A DNA stretch of 64,000 bases. Source: an uncultured Lachnospiraceae bacterium. Its GTDB lineage: Bacteria > Bacillota > Clostridia > Lachnospirales > Lachnospiraceae. Below, piece after piece: positions 34,457 through 38,606 of the stretch. The notes below the pieces were generated by a model. The model was not told the origin of the DNA, did not search any database, and saw nothing but the letters and a program-made list of their open reading frames with translations. Position 1 is the stretch's first letter, and each line of letters begins with the position of its first letter. The stretch covers positions 372,001-436,000 of the forward strand of contig CADAOY010000004.1 of NCBI GenBank assembly GCA_902789665.1. Direction: 5' to 3'. The translations under genes were made by a program, and so were the position numbers.

Positions 34457-34481
34457 ATATATAAATGTATGAGGGATATTG

Positions 34482-35864
34482 ATGAATAATTCTAAAAAAG
34501 TCTTAAAATATGCAAAAGAGCATTTTAATGAAGTACATCATACAACTCTTAATCCTGAAGGACCCGGAGTAGTAAGAATACATCTGGTTCCACCGGCTTT
34601 AGAGGATGATAATGTAGGACCAAGTGTTGTCATTATCAATGGTCAGGATATTATTCCTGTTAATCCTTCATGGACAATTCTGCTTTGCGAATTTATTGAT
34701 GAGATTAATAAGTATGATGGTAAGGAAGTTACAGAAGATGATTATAAAATCATCGTTAATAACATCTGTAAGAAGGTTAAGAAGATTTATACTTTTCTTC
34801 CAAAGAGAGTTATTAAAAATGATTTGAATCGTATTCTTGATACCTTTACAGCTGTTGCGTACAGAGAAGATGTTACTGAAGAAATAGGATATATGAATAT
34901 TGGTGAGTATGCTCCATTTATGAAGGCTCCGCACAGAATGGATTTACTTGTTTCTGCCATGGAGAAAAATGGTAAATGGAACTGTAATCAGAAATGTATT
35001 CACTGCTATGCCGCAGGTCAGGAACATGGTAAAGAGGAAGAGTTATCTACTGATGACTGGAAGAAAATCATTAATAAATGCAGGGAAATCGGTATTCCTC
35101 AGCTTACATTTACAGGTGGCGAACCTACAGTAAGAGAAGATTTATTTGAACTTATAGACAGTGCAAGATGGTTTGTTACAAGACTTAATACAAATGGTAT
35201 TAATTTAAGCCCTGAGTTCTGTGAGAAACTAAAAAAGGCTTCGCTTGACAGCGTTCAGATTACATTTTATTCATCTGATGAAGAAATTCATAATAAATTA
35301 GTAGGCGCAAATGCTTATGAGAAGACAGTAGATGGAATTAAGAATGCACTTGCTGCCGGCTTAAGTGTCAGCGTTAATACACCGCTTTGCACTGATAACA
35401 AGGACTATCTTAATACACTTAAATTCCTTAACTCTCTTGGAGTTACATATGTTACCTGTTCAGCGCTTATTACAACAGGTAATGCGACCAAAGACCCTTC
35501 AGTTAAGCTTCAGCTTGAAGTAGAAGAATTAAAGAAGATTTTAAAGGAATCAGTAGAGTATTGTAATGAAAACAAGATAGAGATCAGTTTCACATCACCA
35601 GGATGGATAGAAACGGAGTATTGTGAAGAACTTGGTATTAATCCGCCTACCTGCGGTGCCTGCCTTTCTAATATGGCAATTACGCCATCAGGCAAGGTTG
35701 TTCCATGCCAGAGCTGGCTTTCAGATAAGCCACTAGGGTGTATGCTGACAGATGACTGGAAGGATATATGGAATAGTGATGAATGCGTTAAAAGACGTGA
35801 TTATTCAGCTTCCATGGAAGGCAAATGTCCCCTTCGAATTACAAAAGAAGGAGGTGACAAATAA
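34482..35864 (+). CDS. Radical SAM/SPASM protein, putative maturase of the adjacent Cys-Ala-tailed protein
   Basis: A 460-residue enzyme. The radical SAM cluster motif is C168-x3-C172-x2-C175 (WNCNQKCIHCYAAG), followed by LTFTGGEPTVREDL and the SAM-binding RLNTNGINL. The C-terminus has SPASM-type cysteines (C391, C394, C409, C420, C435, C449) for auxiliary iron-sulfur clusters. The first 130 or so residues lack cysteines and include VVIINGQDIIPVNPSWTILL followed by helices, which resembles the PqqD-like recognition domain that binds leader peptides. I start at ATG 34482 (GAGGG six bases upstream) rather than TTG 34479. The stop shares a base with the next ATG, so the two are coupled. Peptide-modifying function is inferred. 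Confidence 0.85.
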   Translation: MNNSKKVLKYAKEHFNEVHHTTLNPEGPGVVRIHLVPPALEDDNVGPSVVIINGQDIIPVNPSWTILLCEFIDEINKYDGKEVTEDDYKIIVNNICKKVKKIYTFLPKRVIKNDLNRILDTFTAVAYREDVTEEIGYMNIGEYAPFMKAPHRMDLLVSAMEKNGKWNCNQKCIHCYAAGQEHGKEEELSTDDWKKIINKCREIGIPQLTFTGGEPTVREDLFELIDSARWFVTRLNTNGINLSPEFCEKLKKASLDSVQITFYSSDEEIHNKLVGANAYEKTVDGIKNALAAGLSVSVNTPLCTDNKDYLNTLKFLNSLGVTYVTCSALITTGNATKDPSVKLQLEVEELKKILKESVEYCNENKIEISFTSPGWIETEYCEELGINPPTCGACLSNMAITPSGKVVPCQSWLSDKPLGCMLTDDWKDIWNSDECVKRRDYSASMEGKCPLRITKEGGDK

Positions 35865-37129
35865 TGAATAAGAATTCTTTTAAAAGATTATTTGGATTAT
35901 TGGCAGTAGTTATAATTTCCACATTATTTGCTTTTGTCATTCTTCCTGTTAAGGTTAATGCCAAAGATCTGGATGAAATTGAAAAATATGTAATTAATGT
36001 AGATGTTAATGAAGATGGAACTCTTACTCTTGTTTATCATATTGAGTGGAGAGTGCTGGATTCAACTTCGGAAGGCCCGCTTTCATGGGTAATAATTGGT
36101 ACGCCTAATAAGCATTATGTCGATTATAAACCATTATCCGATTCCATTAAAAAGATGAAGTATACCACTGACTCAGGTTCCGGATTCAGGATTGACCTCG
36201 ATAAGGATTATTATGCAGGTGACCTTGTTATAATAGAATTTGCTCTTGTTCAGGATTATATGTATCAGATGGAATATCCTGAAAAAGGTCAGACTCAGTA
36301 TACCTTTACTCCGGGCTGGTTTGATGAGATTTATGTTGATGAATTAATAATTACATGGAATGAAGATAAGTCGTTATATGCTAAATCCGGCTATACGGAA
36401 ATGGATGGACGTTATGTATGGCATACATTCCTTGGTAAGGGCAGTAAATATACAGTATCGGTTGTATATCCTTCTGATGCATATGAGTTTAGTGCCAATA
36501 AAAAATATATAGATGAACAGAAGGGAAGCGGAGCCACAGATGATACCGGATCTGCCATTTTGGGAACAATCTTTATATTCTTTATGTATGGTGGTTTTTT
36601 TGTTTTAGTTTATCTGTTTGTTTTACTGGTTGATTATATATCATGGGTATCGAGTGCAGGATTTAAACCGGGAATCAAGAAAGTAAGAACTATTATTGAA
36701 TACTACGATAAATGTCAGGGCTGTGGCGGTGTAAGACCGAAGGGCGCAGAAATATGTCCATATTGTGGAAGAAACTTCATCAAATCAAAAGAGGTTATTG
36801 AAGAAACTAAGATTCCTAAGAAATATGAAGAATATAAGAAGGAAATACTTAATGCCAAAAAGGATGGTAATTACAGAATATCAACTCTTCCAAATACTGT
36901 TATGCATGTAAGTTCGGTGACCGTTCCTCATAAAACTTCCTTTAAGAATTTCAGGGCTGCCAATGCTGCAAAGTCCAGTGGAAGAAGAGGTGGACACGGC
37001 GGCGGATGTGCCTGTGCCTGCGCCTGTGCGTGTGCCTGTGCAGGTGGCGGAAGAGCCGGTTGTATAGCCAAAGATTTCTATAAAGACCACAAAAAGAAGG
37101 ATTCGGTGATTTTTACCGTATCAAAATGA
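35864..37129 (+). CDS. Membrane protein with zinc ribbon and Cys-Ala repeat tail, putative radical SAM substrate
   Basis: A 421-residue protein preceded by a near-perfect AAGGAGGTGA site. In order it has a signal peptide (about 1-32, cleavage after VNA), a beta-rich extracellular domain of about 190 residues resembling DUF2207-type proteins, one transmembrane segment (about 231-262), a zinc ribbon (C284, C287, C298, C301) and a Lys/Glu-rich linker. The tail carries GGHGGG, six Cys-Ala pairs (382-393), GGGRAGC (C400) and a Lys-rich end. With this topology the repeat is cytoplasmic, reachable by the coupled radical SAM enzyme. Codons in the repeat vary (TGT/TGC; GCC/GCG/GCA), so protein sequence rather than DNA slippage seems to be conserved. 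Function is unknown; thioether formation or metal binding on the tail are both possible. Confidence 0.82.
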   Translation: MNKNSFKRLFGLLAVVIISTLFAFVILPVKVNAKDLDEIEKYVINVDVNEDGTLTLVYHIEWRVLDSTSEGPLSWVIIGTPNKHYVDYKPLSDSIKKMKYTTDSGSGFRIDLDKDYYAGDLVIIEFALVQDYMYQMEYPEKGQTQYTFTPGWFDEIYVDELIITWNEDKSLYAKSGYTEMDGRYVWHTFLGKGSKYTVSVVYPSDAYEFSANKKYIDEQKGSGATDDTGSAILGTIFIFFMYGGFFVLVYLFVLLVDYISWVSSAGFKPGIKKVRTIIEYYDKCQGCGGVRPKGAEICPYCGRNFIKSKEVIEETKIPKKYEEYKKEILNAKKDGNYRISTLPNTVMHVSSVTVPHKTSFKNFRAANAAKSSGRRGGHGGGCACACACACACAGGGRAGCIAKDFYKDHKKKDSVIFTVSK

Positions 37130-37168: not shown

Positions 37169-37213
37169 CGTAAAGTACGTTTGAATAAAAGTAAGCAGAT
37201 AGGAGGTGTAAAG

Positions 37214-37399
37214 ATGTCTATTTGTCCTAAGAATAAATCTTCCAAGGGAAGAAGAGATAAAAGAAGAGCTAATTGGAAAATGAGCGCTAGCACATTAGTT
37301 AAGTGCAGCAATTGTGGCGCTTTAACAGTACCTCATAGAGTTTGTAAGGCTTGTGGTCATTACAACAAGAAGGAAGTAGTTAAATTAGAAGAAGCTTAA
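37214..37399 (+). CDS. rpmF: 50S ribosomal protein L32
   Basis: A 61-residue basic protein of the large ribosomal subunit. It begins MSICPKNKSSKGRRDKRRANW and has the zinc-type pairs CSNC and CKAC. The start at ATG 37214 is fixed by AGGAGGT at 37201-37207; an upstream in-frame start at 37181 would add residues unlike L32. It forms its own unit between a consensus promoter and a palindromic terminator, separated from plsX, its usual neighbour. Confidence 0.97.
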   Translation: MSICPKNKSSKGRRDKRRANWKMSASTLVKCSNCGALTVPHRVCKACGHYNKKEVVKLEEA

Positions 37400-37481: not shown

Positions 37482-38606
37482 ATGCGTTTGGAAAATGACA
37501 AAGAGAATATGGAGGAATTTGACAACAAGGTCAATGTTGGTTTTGCAGGAGCAATTATGATTGCTCTTTTTGTGTTGACAATTGTTGGCGTTATTCTTTT
37601 TGTAAACAGGGACGCTCTTAATCTGCTTAATAAAAAGCCGGCACCTGAAGTTCAGGAGGTAAAAGAGCCGGATGATTTAGATGGACTTGTGTCAGGTTCT
37701 ACTTTGACATCTGATGATCTTGATATTTGGGAAGATTATCCAAAGGAAGAACCGGCAGAAGAAGAAACGGTTATTCCGGGAAGTGCCACATATGAAGAGG
37801 ATAAGGAAGAAGATCCTTCTGAAGGTGGAACAAAGACTGAAGTTAAGTTATCAGATGGAACTGTAAAATGGTATCCAATCAGTCCATATATTCCTGAATG
37901 TCCATATAAAGATGAGATGTTCAGCACAAGTAATGGAAGAATGGCTTACTATGAAGATGGCAAAGTCGTTTCCTATACAGGCGTTGATATATCACAGAAT
38001 AATGACTATGTGGATTTTAATAAAGTAAAAAAAGACGGAATTGATTATGTAATGCTGAGGGTTGGAAGCCGTGGATATTCATCAGGTGTTATATCGATAG
38101 ATGAGAATTTCTATGACAATGCACAGAGAGCAGGACAGGCCGGACTGGATATAGGTGTTATTTTCTTCTCCCAGGCCATATCGGAAGCAGAAGCGATAGA
38201 GGAGGCGGATTTTGTCTATAATACTTTAAATGGCGTAGATGTTAAATATCCTGTTGTATATCAGATGGATTATGTTCCTAATGATGTATCCAGAATAGAT
38301 AAATTAACTGTGGAGAATAAAACCAAAATCGCTGCGGCTTTCCTTAACAGAATAAATGAAAGAAGCAAGGCGGAGGGTGCGACAGGAAGATATATTCCAA
38401 TGCTTTATGCCGATAAGGAATGGGCTTTTACATCGATTAATTATTTAAGTCTGTGGTCATATGATTTATATTATGAGAATCTTTCTGACATGCCGAATTT
38501 CCCATACAGATTCCATATGTGGAAATATTCCAAAACCGGAGTGGTTGACGGTATATCCGGAAAAGTGGATTTAAGCATAAGCTTAATAGATTATAATTTG
38601 AAATAA
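37482..38606 (+). CDS. Membrane-anchored GH25 (muramidase-like) protein with altered active site
   Basis: A 374-residue protein with one N-terminal transmembrane anchor (about residues 18-41), an acidic Pro/Glu-rich linker (about 45-120), then a GH25 lysozyme-like barrel outside the cell. The fold is indicated by GVDISQNNDYVDFNKVKKDG (with D169), YVMLRVGSRGYSSG, the sequential barrel segments and WSYDLYYENL. At the catalytic strand, active GH25 enzymes have an Asp-x-Glu motif; here the aligned segment reads YPVVYQMDYV, placing Q261 and D263 at those positions. Cleavage of peptidoglycan is therefore doubtful; it may bind rather than cut. Its stop codon abuts that of the convergent next gene. 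Confidence 0.85.
   Translation: MRLENDKENMEEFDNKVNVGFAGAIMIALFVLTIVGVILFVNRDALNLLNKKPAPEVQEVKEPDDLDGLVSGSTLTSDDLDIWEDYPKEEPAEEETVIPGSATYEEDKEEDPSEGGTKTEVKLSDGTVKWYPISPYIPECPYKDEMFSTSNGRMAYYEDGKVVSYTGVDISQNNDYVDFNKVKKDGIDYVMLRVGSRGYSSGVISIDENFYDNAQRAGQAGLDIGVIFFSQAISEAEAIEEADFVYNTLNGVDVKYPVVYQMDYVPNDVSRIDKLTVENKTKIAAAFLNRINERSKAEGATGRYIPMLYADKEWAFTSINYLSLWSYDLYYENLSDMPNFPYRFHMWKYSKTGVVDGISGKVDLSISLIDYNLK

Follow-up and report, generated by a model that had tools for sequence, protein, structure and literature searches.

A radical SAM enzyme and a membrane protein with a Cys-Ala tail, its putative substrate, form a two-gene family in Lachnospiraceae and more distant relatives

In the genome of an uncultured Lachnospiraceae bacterium, a gene for a radical S-adenosylmethionine (SAM) enzyme is followed directly by one for a membrane protein that ends in a run of Cys-Ala pairs, and the two constitute a two-gene family. 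This gene pair lies in a stretch of 64,000 nucleotides, here called the window (assembly GCA_902789665.1, contig CADAOY010000004.1, positions 372,001 to 436,000). That the tail is the substrate of the enzyme is strongly supported: the tail is the likely substrate because the enzyme has a predicted peptide-recognition fold, because the pairing is strict and because both Cys and Ala are conserved. For the full proposal, in which the enzyme cross-links the Cys-Ala repeat of a membrane-tethered tail in the cytosol, we put the probability at roughly two in three (0.66); the enzyme-substrate pairing taken by itself is highly probable.

The family was delimited with enzyme thresholds of 1e-80 to 1e-100, which we chose so that the clade would separate from the remaining radical SAM enzymes. 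Scanning genome contigs yielded 17 loci with the enzyme, 14 titled Lachnospiraceae and one each Oscillospiraceae, Clostridia and Anaeroplasmataceae; searches of whole genomes added further ones, and 49 loci were inspected in all (the window, L030-L046, L047-L058, L099, L100, L101, L104, L117-L123 and L148-L155). The tail gene stands directly beside the enzyme gene, on the same strand, in 42 of the 49, a count pooled from pattern scans of which one skipped L035, L040, L045, L046, L049, L054 and L149 and another L118, L122, L150 and L152. The other seven (L039, L046, L101, L104, L120, L148 and L151) are interrupted at the tail site by a contig end or a run of Ns, and every covered locus had the tail. 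It lies downstream of the enzyme in all such loci but L100, where two tail genes are upstream. The 42 loci do not represent 42 independent events, because some are near-copies (the window and L030; L040 and L045; L041 and L042) and because L039 and L042 come from two contigs of the same assembly. L045 belongs to Lachnospiraceae bacterium YSD2013, apparently an isolate. When the neighbours of 40 loci were clustered, the tail gene was recovered in 39 and the enzyme in 38, the gaps being L039 (cut), L103 (a tail-only contig) and L038 (enzyme lost to the open-reading-frame filter); the next commonest clusters reach 6 of the 40, and no further gene is common to all.

Separate searches with an enzyme query (A1) and with a tail query of 29 positions (A3) identified the same 13 of 150 family genomes, and all three enzyme carriers among 216 order genomes had the tail. 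Among 291 class genomes the enzyme occurs in 5, all with tail matches at E 1.8e-7 or better, and the tail at E up to 0.01 in 10; the five weak tail-only matches (E 0.002-0.009; G376, G361, G381, G232 and G221) were rejected, the matched frame showing no Cys-Ala repeat. Of 348 phylum genomes, 8 carry the enzyme at E up to 1e-90, and the 6 genomes with a tail match (E up to 1e-3) are all within these 8; of the remaining two, G685 revealed a tail on reading, and in G772 the site falls in a run of Ns. Within the class to which G486 belongs, the enzyme is present in 12 of 17 genomes, with the tail beside it in 9 and the site cut in 3, and the gene for the body of the tail protein gave no match in the 5 enzyme-free genomes. 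The sequence-only reading had named tails as common without the enzyme as with it as the result that would undo the pairing; this comparison was run, and no real tail was found in any enzyme-free genome of the family (150), class (291) and phylum (348) sets. G082 encodes a body-like protein (27% identity) without tail and without enzyme, and G065 and G073 match only in zinc ribbons. In the tail-bearing G383 the enzyme frame (L101, 4963-6345) has an internal TAA; the body gene beside it runs into a Gly-rich contig end, and the tail is found at the end of another contig, L102. Additional tail genes were seen as a divergent second copy at L031 (38-1300, minus strand), in tandem in L100 (4782-5711 and 5774-6709) and probably as two different copies in G345 (L103 with L104).

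The tail itself is conserved at the protein level, to judge from its codons. Forty tail blocks of 15 codons comprise 39 DNA versions and 4 peptide versions, with proportions of synonymous (pS) and non-synonymous (pN) difference of 0.78 and 0.038 (pN/pS 0.05), values which are to be read knowing that the blocks were chosen by a pattern requiring a Cys-Ala tail, such that part of the invariance arises by construction and a low pN is favoured, and that at least six tails lie outside the test (L118, L122, L150, L152, L155 and the contig-end L102, with GGGRVGC). The core Cys and Ala are invariant in the 40 blocks save for one Cys-to-Tyr change, and the longest run of invariant columns in 16 aligned relatives lies in the tail. 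In the source genome, which is 91.5% complete, the (CA)4 DNA pattern has one site (three overlapping matches), and the reversed control gave 0 matches; a chance repeat is ruled out by this single site, the empty control and the many DNA versions behind so few peptides. The blocks end in GGGRAGC (31), GGGGAGC (5) or SSGRAGC (4), and in the tree the four SSGRAGC rows group together as a supported clade, and the five GGGGAGC rows belong to the remote clade; L155, serine-spaced yet ending in GGGRAGC, was left out of the tree. The 24 rows with a zinc ribbon fall on one side of a branch with support 96/89 and the 9 'short' rows without it form no well-supported clade, the labels of L104 (ribbon) and L120 (no ribbon) being assumed, as their tail genes are cut. 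The six Cys-Ala pairs of the sequence-only reading are present in the window, but the conserved unit, judged by alignment, is (CA)4 followed by G-x-AGC and K-[D]-F rather than exactly six pairs.

The same unit reaches the remote clade, which retains the pair and the CACACACA core, its tails reading GCACVSCACACVSCACACACAGG-x-GAGC-xx-KF or near. Its enzyme is 31-36% identical to the nearer enzymes (L118 against six), with long branches joining them, and its bodies are homologous to those of the window side (hhalign E 6e-31); body and tail are inherited together.

The window enzyme passes the Pfam cut-offs for Radical_SAM (PF04055, 89.2 bits against 29.5, E 4e-25) and SPASM (PF13186, 30.3 bits against 21.5, E 5e-7), and with both the CxxxCxxC motif and the Radical_SAM domain it belongs to the radical SAM superfamily. 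A SPASM domain usually has seven cysteines, in the motif CX9-15GX4C plus CX2CX5CX3C. Here the first half is kept (C391, G404, C409) and the second is down to C449, which is not the set for two auxiliary clusters, and the enzyme is Twitch-like rather than full SPASM. The earlier label of radical SAM/SPASM enzyme thus survives in its first part, on Pfam and the invariant cluster, and is refined in its second to a reduced SPASM domain, with only C391, C409 and C449 in motif positions. The full cysteine set occurs in 4 of 5 aligned remote-clade enzymes, and L122 is one Cys short. In the AlphaFold2 model the loop of the cluster motif is poor (predicted local distance difference test, pLDDT, below 50) and the N-terminal domain is confident (pLDDT 82-94 by 10-residue blocks). 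By its predicted fold this domain is like the recognition element (RRE), a PqqD-like winged-helix peptide-binding domain, of enzymes acting on ribosomally synthesised and post-translationally modified peptides (RiPPs); in L057 (8521-10323, minus strand) the alignment places a repetitive insertion within it. Comparison of the predicted model gave SkfB as best match, aligning from model residue 31 (SuiB from 21), with the sactisynthase entries 5why and 5wgg among the top matches and SuiB and TigE ranked close to them, and the predicted fold in this way bears out the earlier suggestion of a RiPP-maturase-like enzyme. SuiB and TigE make bonds other than sactisynthase thioethers, and because they rank nearby the sactisynthase-like fold leaves the chemistry undecided.

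The features of both genes are collected in Table 1. The sequence-only reading was right about the coordinates, the TAATG in which the enzyme stop and the tail-gene start overlap by one base, and the ribosome site before the second start: AAGGAGGTGA sits immediately upstream of it. The enzyme gene starts with ATG, and a TTG at 34479 is a possible alternative.

Table 1. Features of the gene pair (window coordinates)
Feature	Position	Strand	Basis
Radical SAM enzyme, putative tail maturase, 460 residues	34482..35864	+	Pfam, alignment, structure matches
N-terminal bbb-aaa domain, residues 31-126, RRE-like by predicted fold	34572..34859	+	AlphaFold2 model
Radical SAM cluster motif C168-x3-C172-x2-C175, CNQKCIHC	34983..35006	+	invariant in 15 aligned enzymes
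Reduced SPASM (Twitch-like), C391-x12-G404-x4-C409 + C449; CX2CX5CX3C half missing	35652..35828	+	alignment
Ribosome-binding site of tail gene, AAGGAGGTGA	35848..35857	+	sequence
Cys-Ala-tailed membrane protein, 421 residues, putative substrate	35864..37129	+	sequence, alignment, hydropathy, model
N-terminal hydrophobic helix, signal-peptide-like, residues 5-34	35876..35965	+	hydropathy
Extracytoplasmic beta domain, about residues 37-204, weakly DUF2207-like	35972..36475	+	PF09972 score, model strands, Foldseek
Single transmembrane helix, residues 229-266	36548..36661	+	hydropathy; net charge -2 before, +3 after
Zinc-ribbon-like CxxCG pair (at 284, 298), residues 284-302, optional in relatives	36713..36769	+	sequence, alignment
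Gly/Ser-rich linker preceding core	36977..37006	+	sequence
Core, six Cys-Ala pairs C382-A393	37007..37042	+	last four pairs invariant in 16 aligned proteins
Follower GGGRAGC-IA-KDFY, residues 394-406, conserved, possible recognition element, with last cysteine C400	37043..37081	+	alignment

The tail protein has the overall plan first described for it, since signal peptide, beta domain, one transmembrane helix and (CA)6-GGGRAGC tail are seen by hydropathy, model and sequence; it ends in (CA)6-GGGRAGC-xxKDFY, with core cysteines spanning 382-392. The AlphaFold2 model (mean pLDDT 69) is mostly confident in the beta domain and falls below 50 in the tail, residues 369-421. DUF2207 (PF09972) stays below its gathering cut-off of 24.4 bits (window 19.1, L034 22.8), and eight other tail proteins scanned gave no match at E 0.1. 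With Foldseek some 200 model columns align to M1 aminopeptidases (E 4e-8, at a low TM-score of 0.28), and oligosaccharyltransferase (OST) subunits also align with low TM-scores. The claimed cytoplasmic zinc ribbon holds for the window protein, where the CxxCG pairs are present; it is absent from many relatives, by motif scan from L044, L053, L055-L058, L100, L117, L119, L121 and L123 and on reading from L118, L122, L153 and L154, and is dispensable in the family. The candidate substrates have 309-691 residues and a membrane helix, so that they are not the short precursors of sactipeptides and ranthipeptides, and the proposal that the core is grafted onto a membrane protein of full size is supported.

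We propose that the two genes act as an enzyme-substrate module. The membrane protein would be inserted through its signal sequence and one helix, with the beta domain outside and the C-terminal tail in the cytosol with the enzyme, a topology we infer because of the signal helix, the one membrane helix and the basic side that follows it. The enzyme may then bind the tail through its RRE-like domain, probably guided by recognition of the follower G-x-AGC-xx-K(D)F(Y), and a 5'-deoxyadenosyl radical generated at the C168/C172/C175 cluster would initiate oxidative cross-linking of the repeat. Thioether formation is the commonest outcome known for a sactisynthase-like fold with Cys-rich cores, and by this analogy the links are most likely S-to-carbon thioethers from Cys sulfur to Ala carbons, each costing 2 Da. 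Ala is a known thioether acceptor in ruminococcin C1 (PMC8172795). The product would be a rigid thioether-ladder tail, probably retained on the membrane protein and not released; at a guess, it might serve that protein as a metal, redox or assembly element.

Besides the selection of the codon blocks mentioned above, several points weigh against this proposal. No NCBIfam thioether-maturase model reaches its cut-off among the matches listed, and the scores of the NirJ2, MoaA and AhbD models indicate superfamily kinship only: with the window enzyme the 25 best of 57 families all stayed below their cut-offs (top, NirJ2, 115 against 500 bits), as did the 25 best of 50 with L118 and of 41 with L058. 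The window-clade enzyme has at most one auxiliary cluster, and one of the duplicated L100 tails has a core Cys replaced by Tyr. Ranthipeptides employ an Asp/Glu/Thr partner as acceptor, and the acceptor here is uncertain because the Cys-Ala repeat has no such partner. Finally, ABC-type ATPase genes are found in 6 of 40 loci, in scattered places, and with neighbours mostly unannotated a protease or exporter is conceivable.

The explanation that survives best beside thioether cross-linking keeps the pair and changes the chemistry, to epimerisation, desaturation or C-C bonds at Ala (one case would be D-Ala within a strand of alternating L and D residues), the free Cys binding metal. Ala and Cys are equally invariant, and radical SAM RiPP enzymes do perform other reactions on repeats, such as cyclopropylglycine formation in a TVGG repeat (PMC9062424); sactisynthases (SkfB; 5why, 5wgg) are nevertheless among the top structural matches, and with SuiB and TigE nearby the fold is indecisive. 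We consider this alternative unlikely. Less likely again is a tail that forms a Cys-rich metal or iron-sulfur site docking or feeding the enzyme, whose true substrate would be elsewhere, as a membrane lipid or small molecule. Strict pairing and Cys conservation would suit a complex as well as a substrate, and many members also have a zinc ribbon, but the RRE-like domain is a peptide-recognition fold, the nearly invariant Ala would be unneeded in a metal site, and the 40 clustered loci have no additional gene in common.

It is still more improbable that the membrane protein is an outsized leader from which the modified tail is cleaved to yield a free RiPP natural product. A C-terminal core with a short follower is found in some RiPPs, a Gly/Ser linker precedes this core, and at L031 one of the ABC-type ATPase genes follows the pair directly downstream. 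However, no cluster of transporter or protease genes is widely shared, the largest recognised one being the scattered 6 of 40, among neighbours that are mostly unannotated; the core, unlike that of diversifying antimicrobials, hardly varies even between remote clades and is inherited with its body. That the tail is a low-complexity repeat which DNA slippage or linkage maintains, functionally unconnected to the enzyme, as a simple two-residue repeat might suggest, is in the main refuted by the 39 DNA versions that collapse to 4 peptides and by full co-occurrence in separate profile searches, and retains almost no probability.

The flanks of the pair are pta on one side and on the other a short gene (37181-37399) that we take to be rpmF-like, followed at 37482-38606 by a lysozyme-like protein of glycosyl hydrolase family 25 whose N-terminal segment is hydrophobic. 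Elsewhere, neighbour clusters are limited to subclades: a protein of 276-336 residues, membrane-like by eye, is encoded immediately upstream of the enzyme in L053, L055, L056, L057, L153 and L154, recurring among carriers without zinc ribbons (L153 and L154 by eye), and its L053 copy has no Pfam match. In the remote clade the order is enzyme, Cys-Ala-tailed protein, TPM-domain protein and LemA (L117, L118, L119, L121, L122 and L123), with TPM assigned by Pfam in L118, L119 and L122, LemA in L117, L118 and L119, and both by likeness elsewhere. In L117 and L121 the tail protein continues, by eye, via an extra hydrophobic segment into a TPM-like part, a fusion that would leave the tail cytosolic. 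LemA as a required partner is ruled out, since it was not found in 14 of 18 window-side genomes tested (17 pair-bearing and the pair-free G120). A plasmid origin was rejected for want of a plasmid match at E 1e-40, and a phage origin likewise, with no relative in viral_contigs; the lone pair-bearing record labelled Bacteriophage sp. (L155, MT837216.1) looks like bacterial chromosome and is probably mislabelled. A role as a defence viperin was rejected too: the PADLOC matches to pVip (E 1.5e-16) span the barrel only and look like superfamily similarity.

Among known systems, the sactisynthases (SkfB, AlbA, ThnB, RumMC) share the predicted layout of RRE, radical SAM barrel and Twitch/SPASM domain (for SkfB, PMC6231123). 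These enzymes act on short peptides that carry an N-terminal leader, whereas the putative substrate here is a 421-residue membrane protein with a C-terminal core, and the window enzyme is far under the SkfB and StsB model cut-offs (73 of 300 and 66 of 625 bits). In the system of QhpD and QhpC, of quinohemoprotein amine dehydrogenase, radical SAM thioethers are made inside a protein subunit and not a natural product (PMC8172795). The substrate there is unrelated, and the system is not known to involve a membrane anchor or a Cys-Ala repeat. ACGX-repeat systems tie a radical SAM enzyme to a short-repeat substrate. The His-Xaa-Ser system (HxsA/HxsB/HxsC) likewise ties a radical SAM enzyme to a short-repeat substrate (HxsB/HxsC, PMC9062424), of a different repeat; HxsC scores 68 bits against 268, and the ACGX model is far below its cut-off. 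In TvgA/TvgB one radical SAM enzyme works repeatedly along a repeat core, forming TVGG cyclopropylglycine (PMC9062424), but on a small peptide with different residues and chemistry.

The nearest printed idea, in the sources as available, is that of the TIGR04222 membrane proteins, whose Cys-bearing, low-complexity C-terminus has been proposed as a substrate of MNIO enzymes (PMC12452194). Both cases have a Cys-bearing C-terminal membrane protein adjoining a RiPP-type enzyme; the MNIO is a non-haem iron enzyme, and there the C-terminus is predicted outside and not all members are enzyme-linked (PMC12452194), whereas the present pair has radical SAM, a regular Cys-Ala core and, as far as the loci here show, strict linkage. 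The tail proteins scanned gave no TIGR04222 match. No description of the pair was found in the available sections of the literature searched, and the radical SAM RiPP atlas of Clark and Seyedsayamdost (2022), outside that search, might include it.

What is known of radical SAM peptide chemistry comes mostly from small peptides. An enzyme of this kind is tied here, at every fully covered locus, to the tail of a membrane protein of full size, and the carriers are little-studied gut and rumen bacteria. Tentatively, and at somewhat less than even odds, the pair might represent a new class of radical SAM modification, in which a membrane-anchored, cytosol-facing Cys-Ala ladder becomes a thioether chain and so gives a protein of the cell envelope a lasting structural, redox or metal element, almost unchanged from Lachnospiraceae to a remote class within their phylum, in which it stands beside TPM and LemA genes. 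Core, follower and enzyme are clearly bounded, and the prediction is therefore simple to test. If the tail is cross-linked, RiPP-type chemistry would reach resident membrane proteins, an alternating Cys-Ala thioether scaffold would be new, and we would have a handle on the poorly understood LemA/TPM/DUF2207-like proteins of the envelope.

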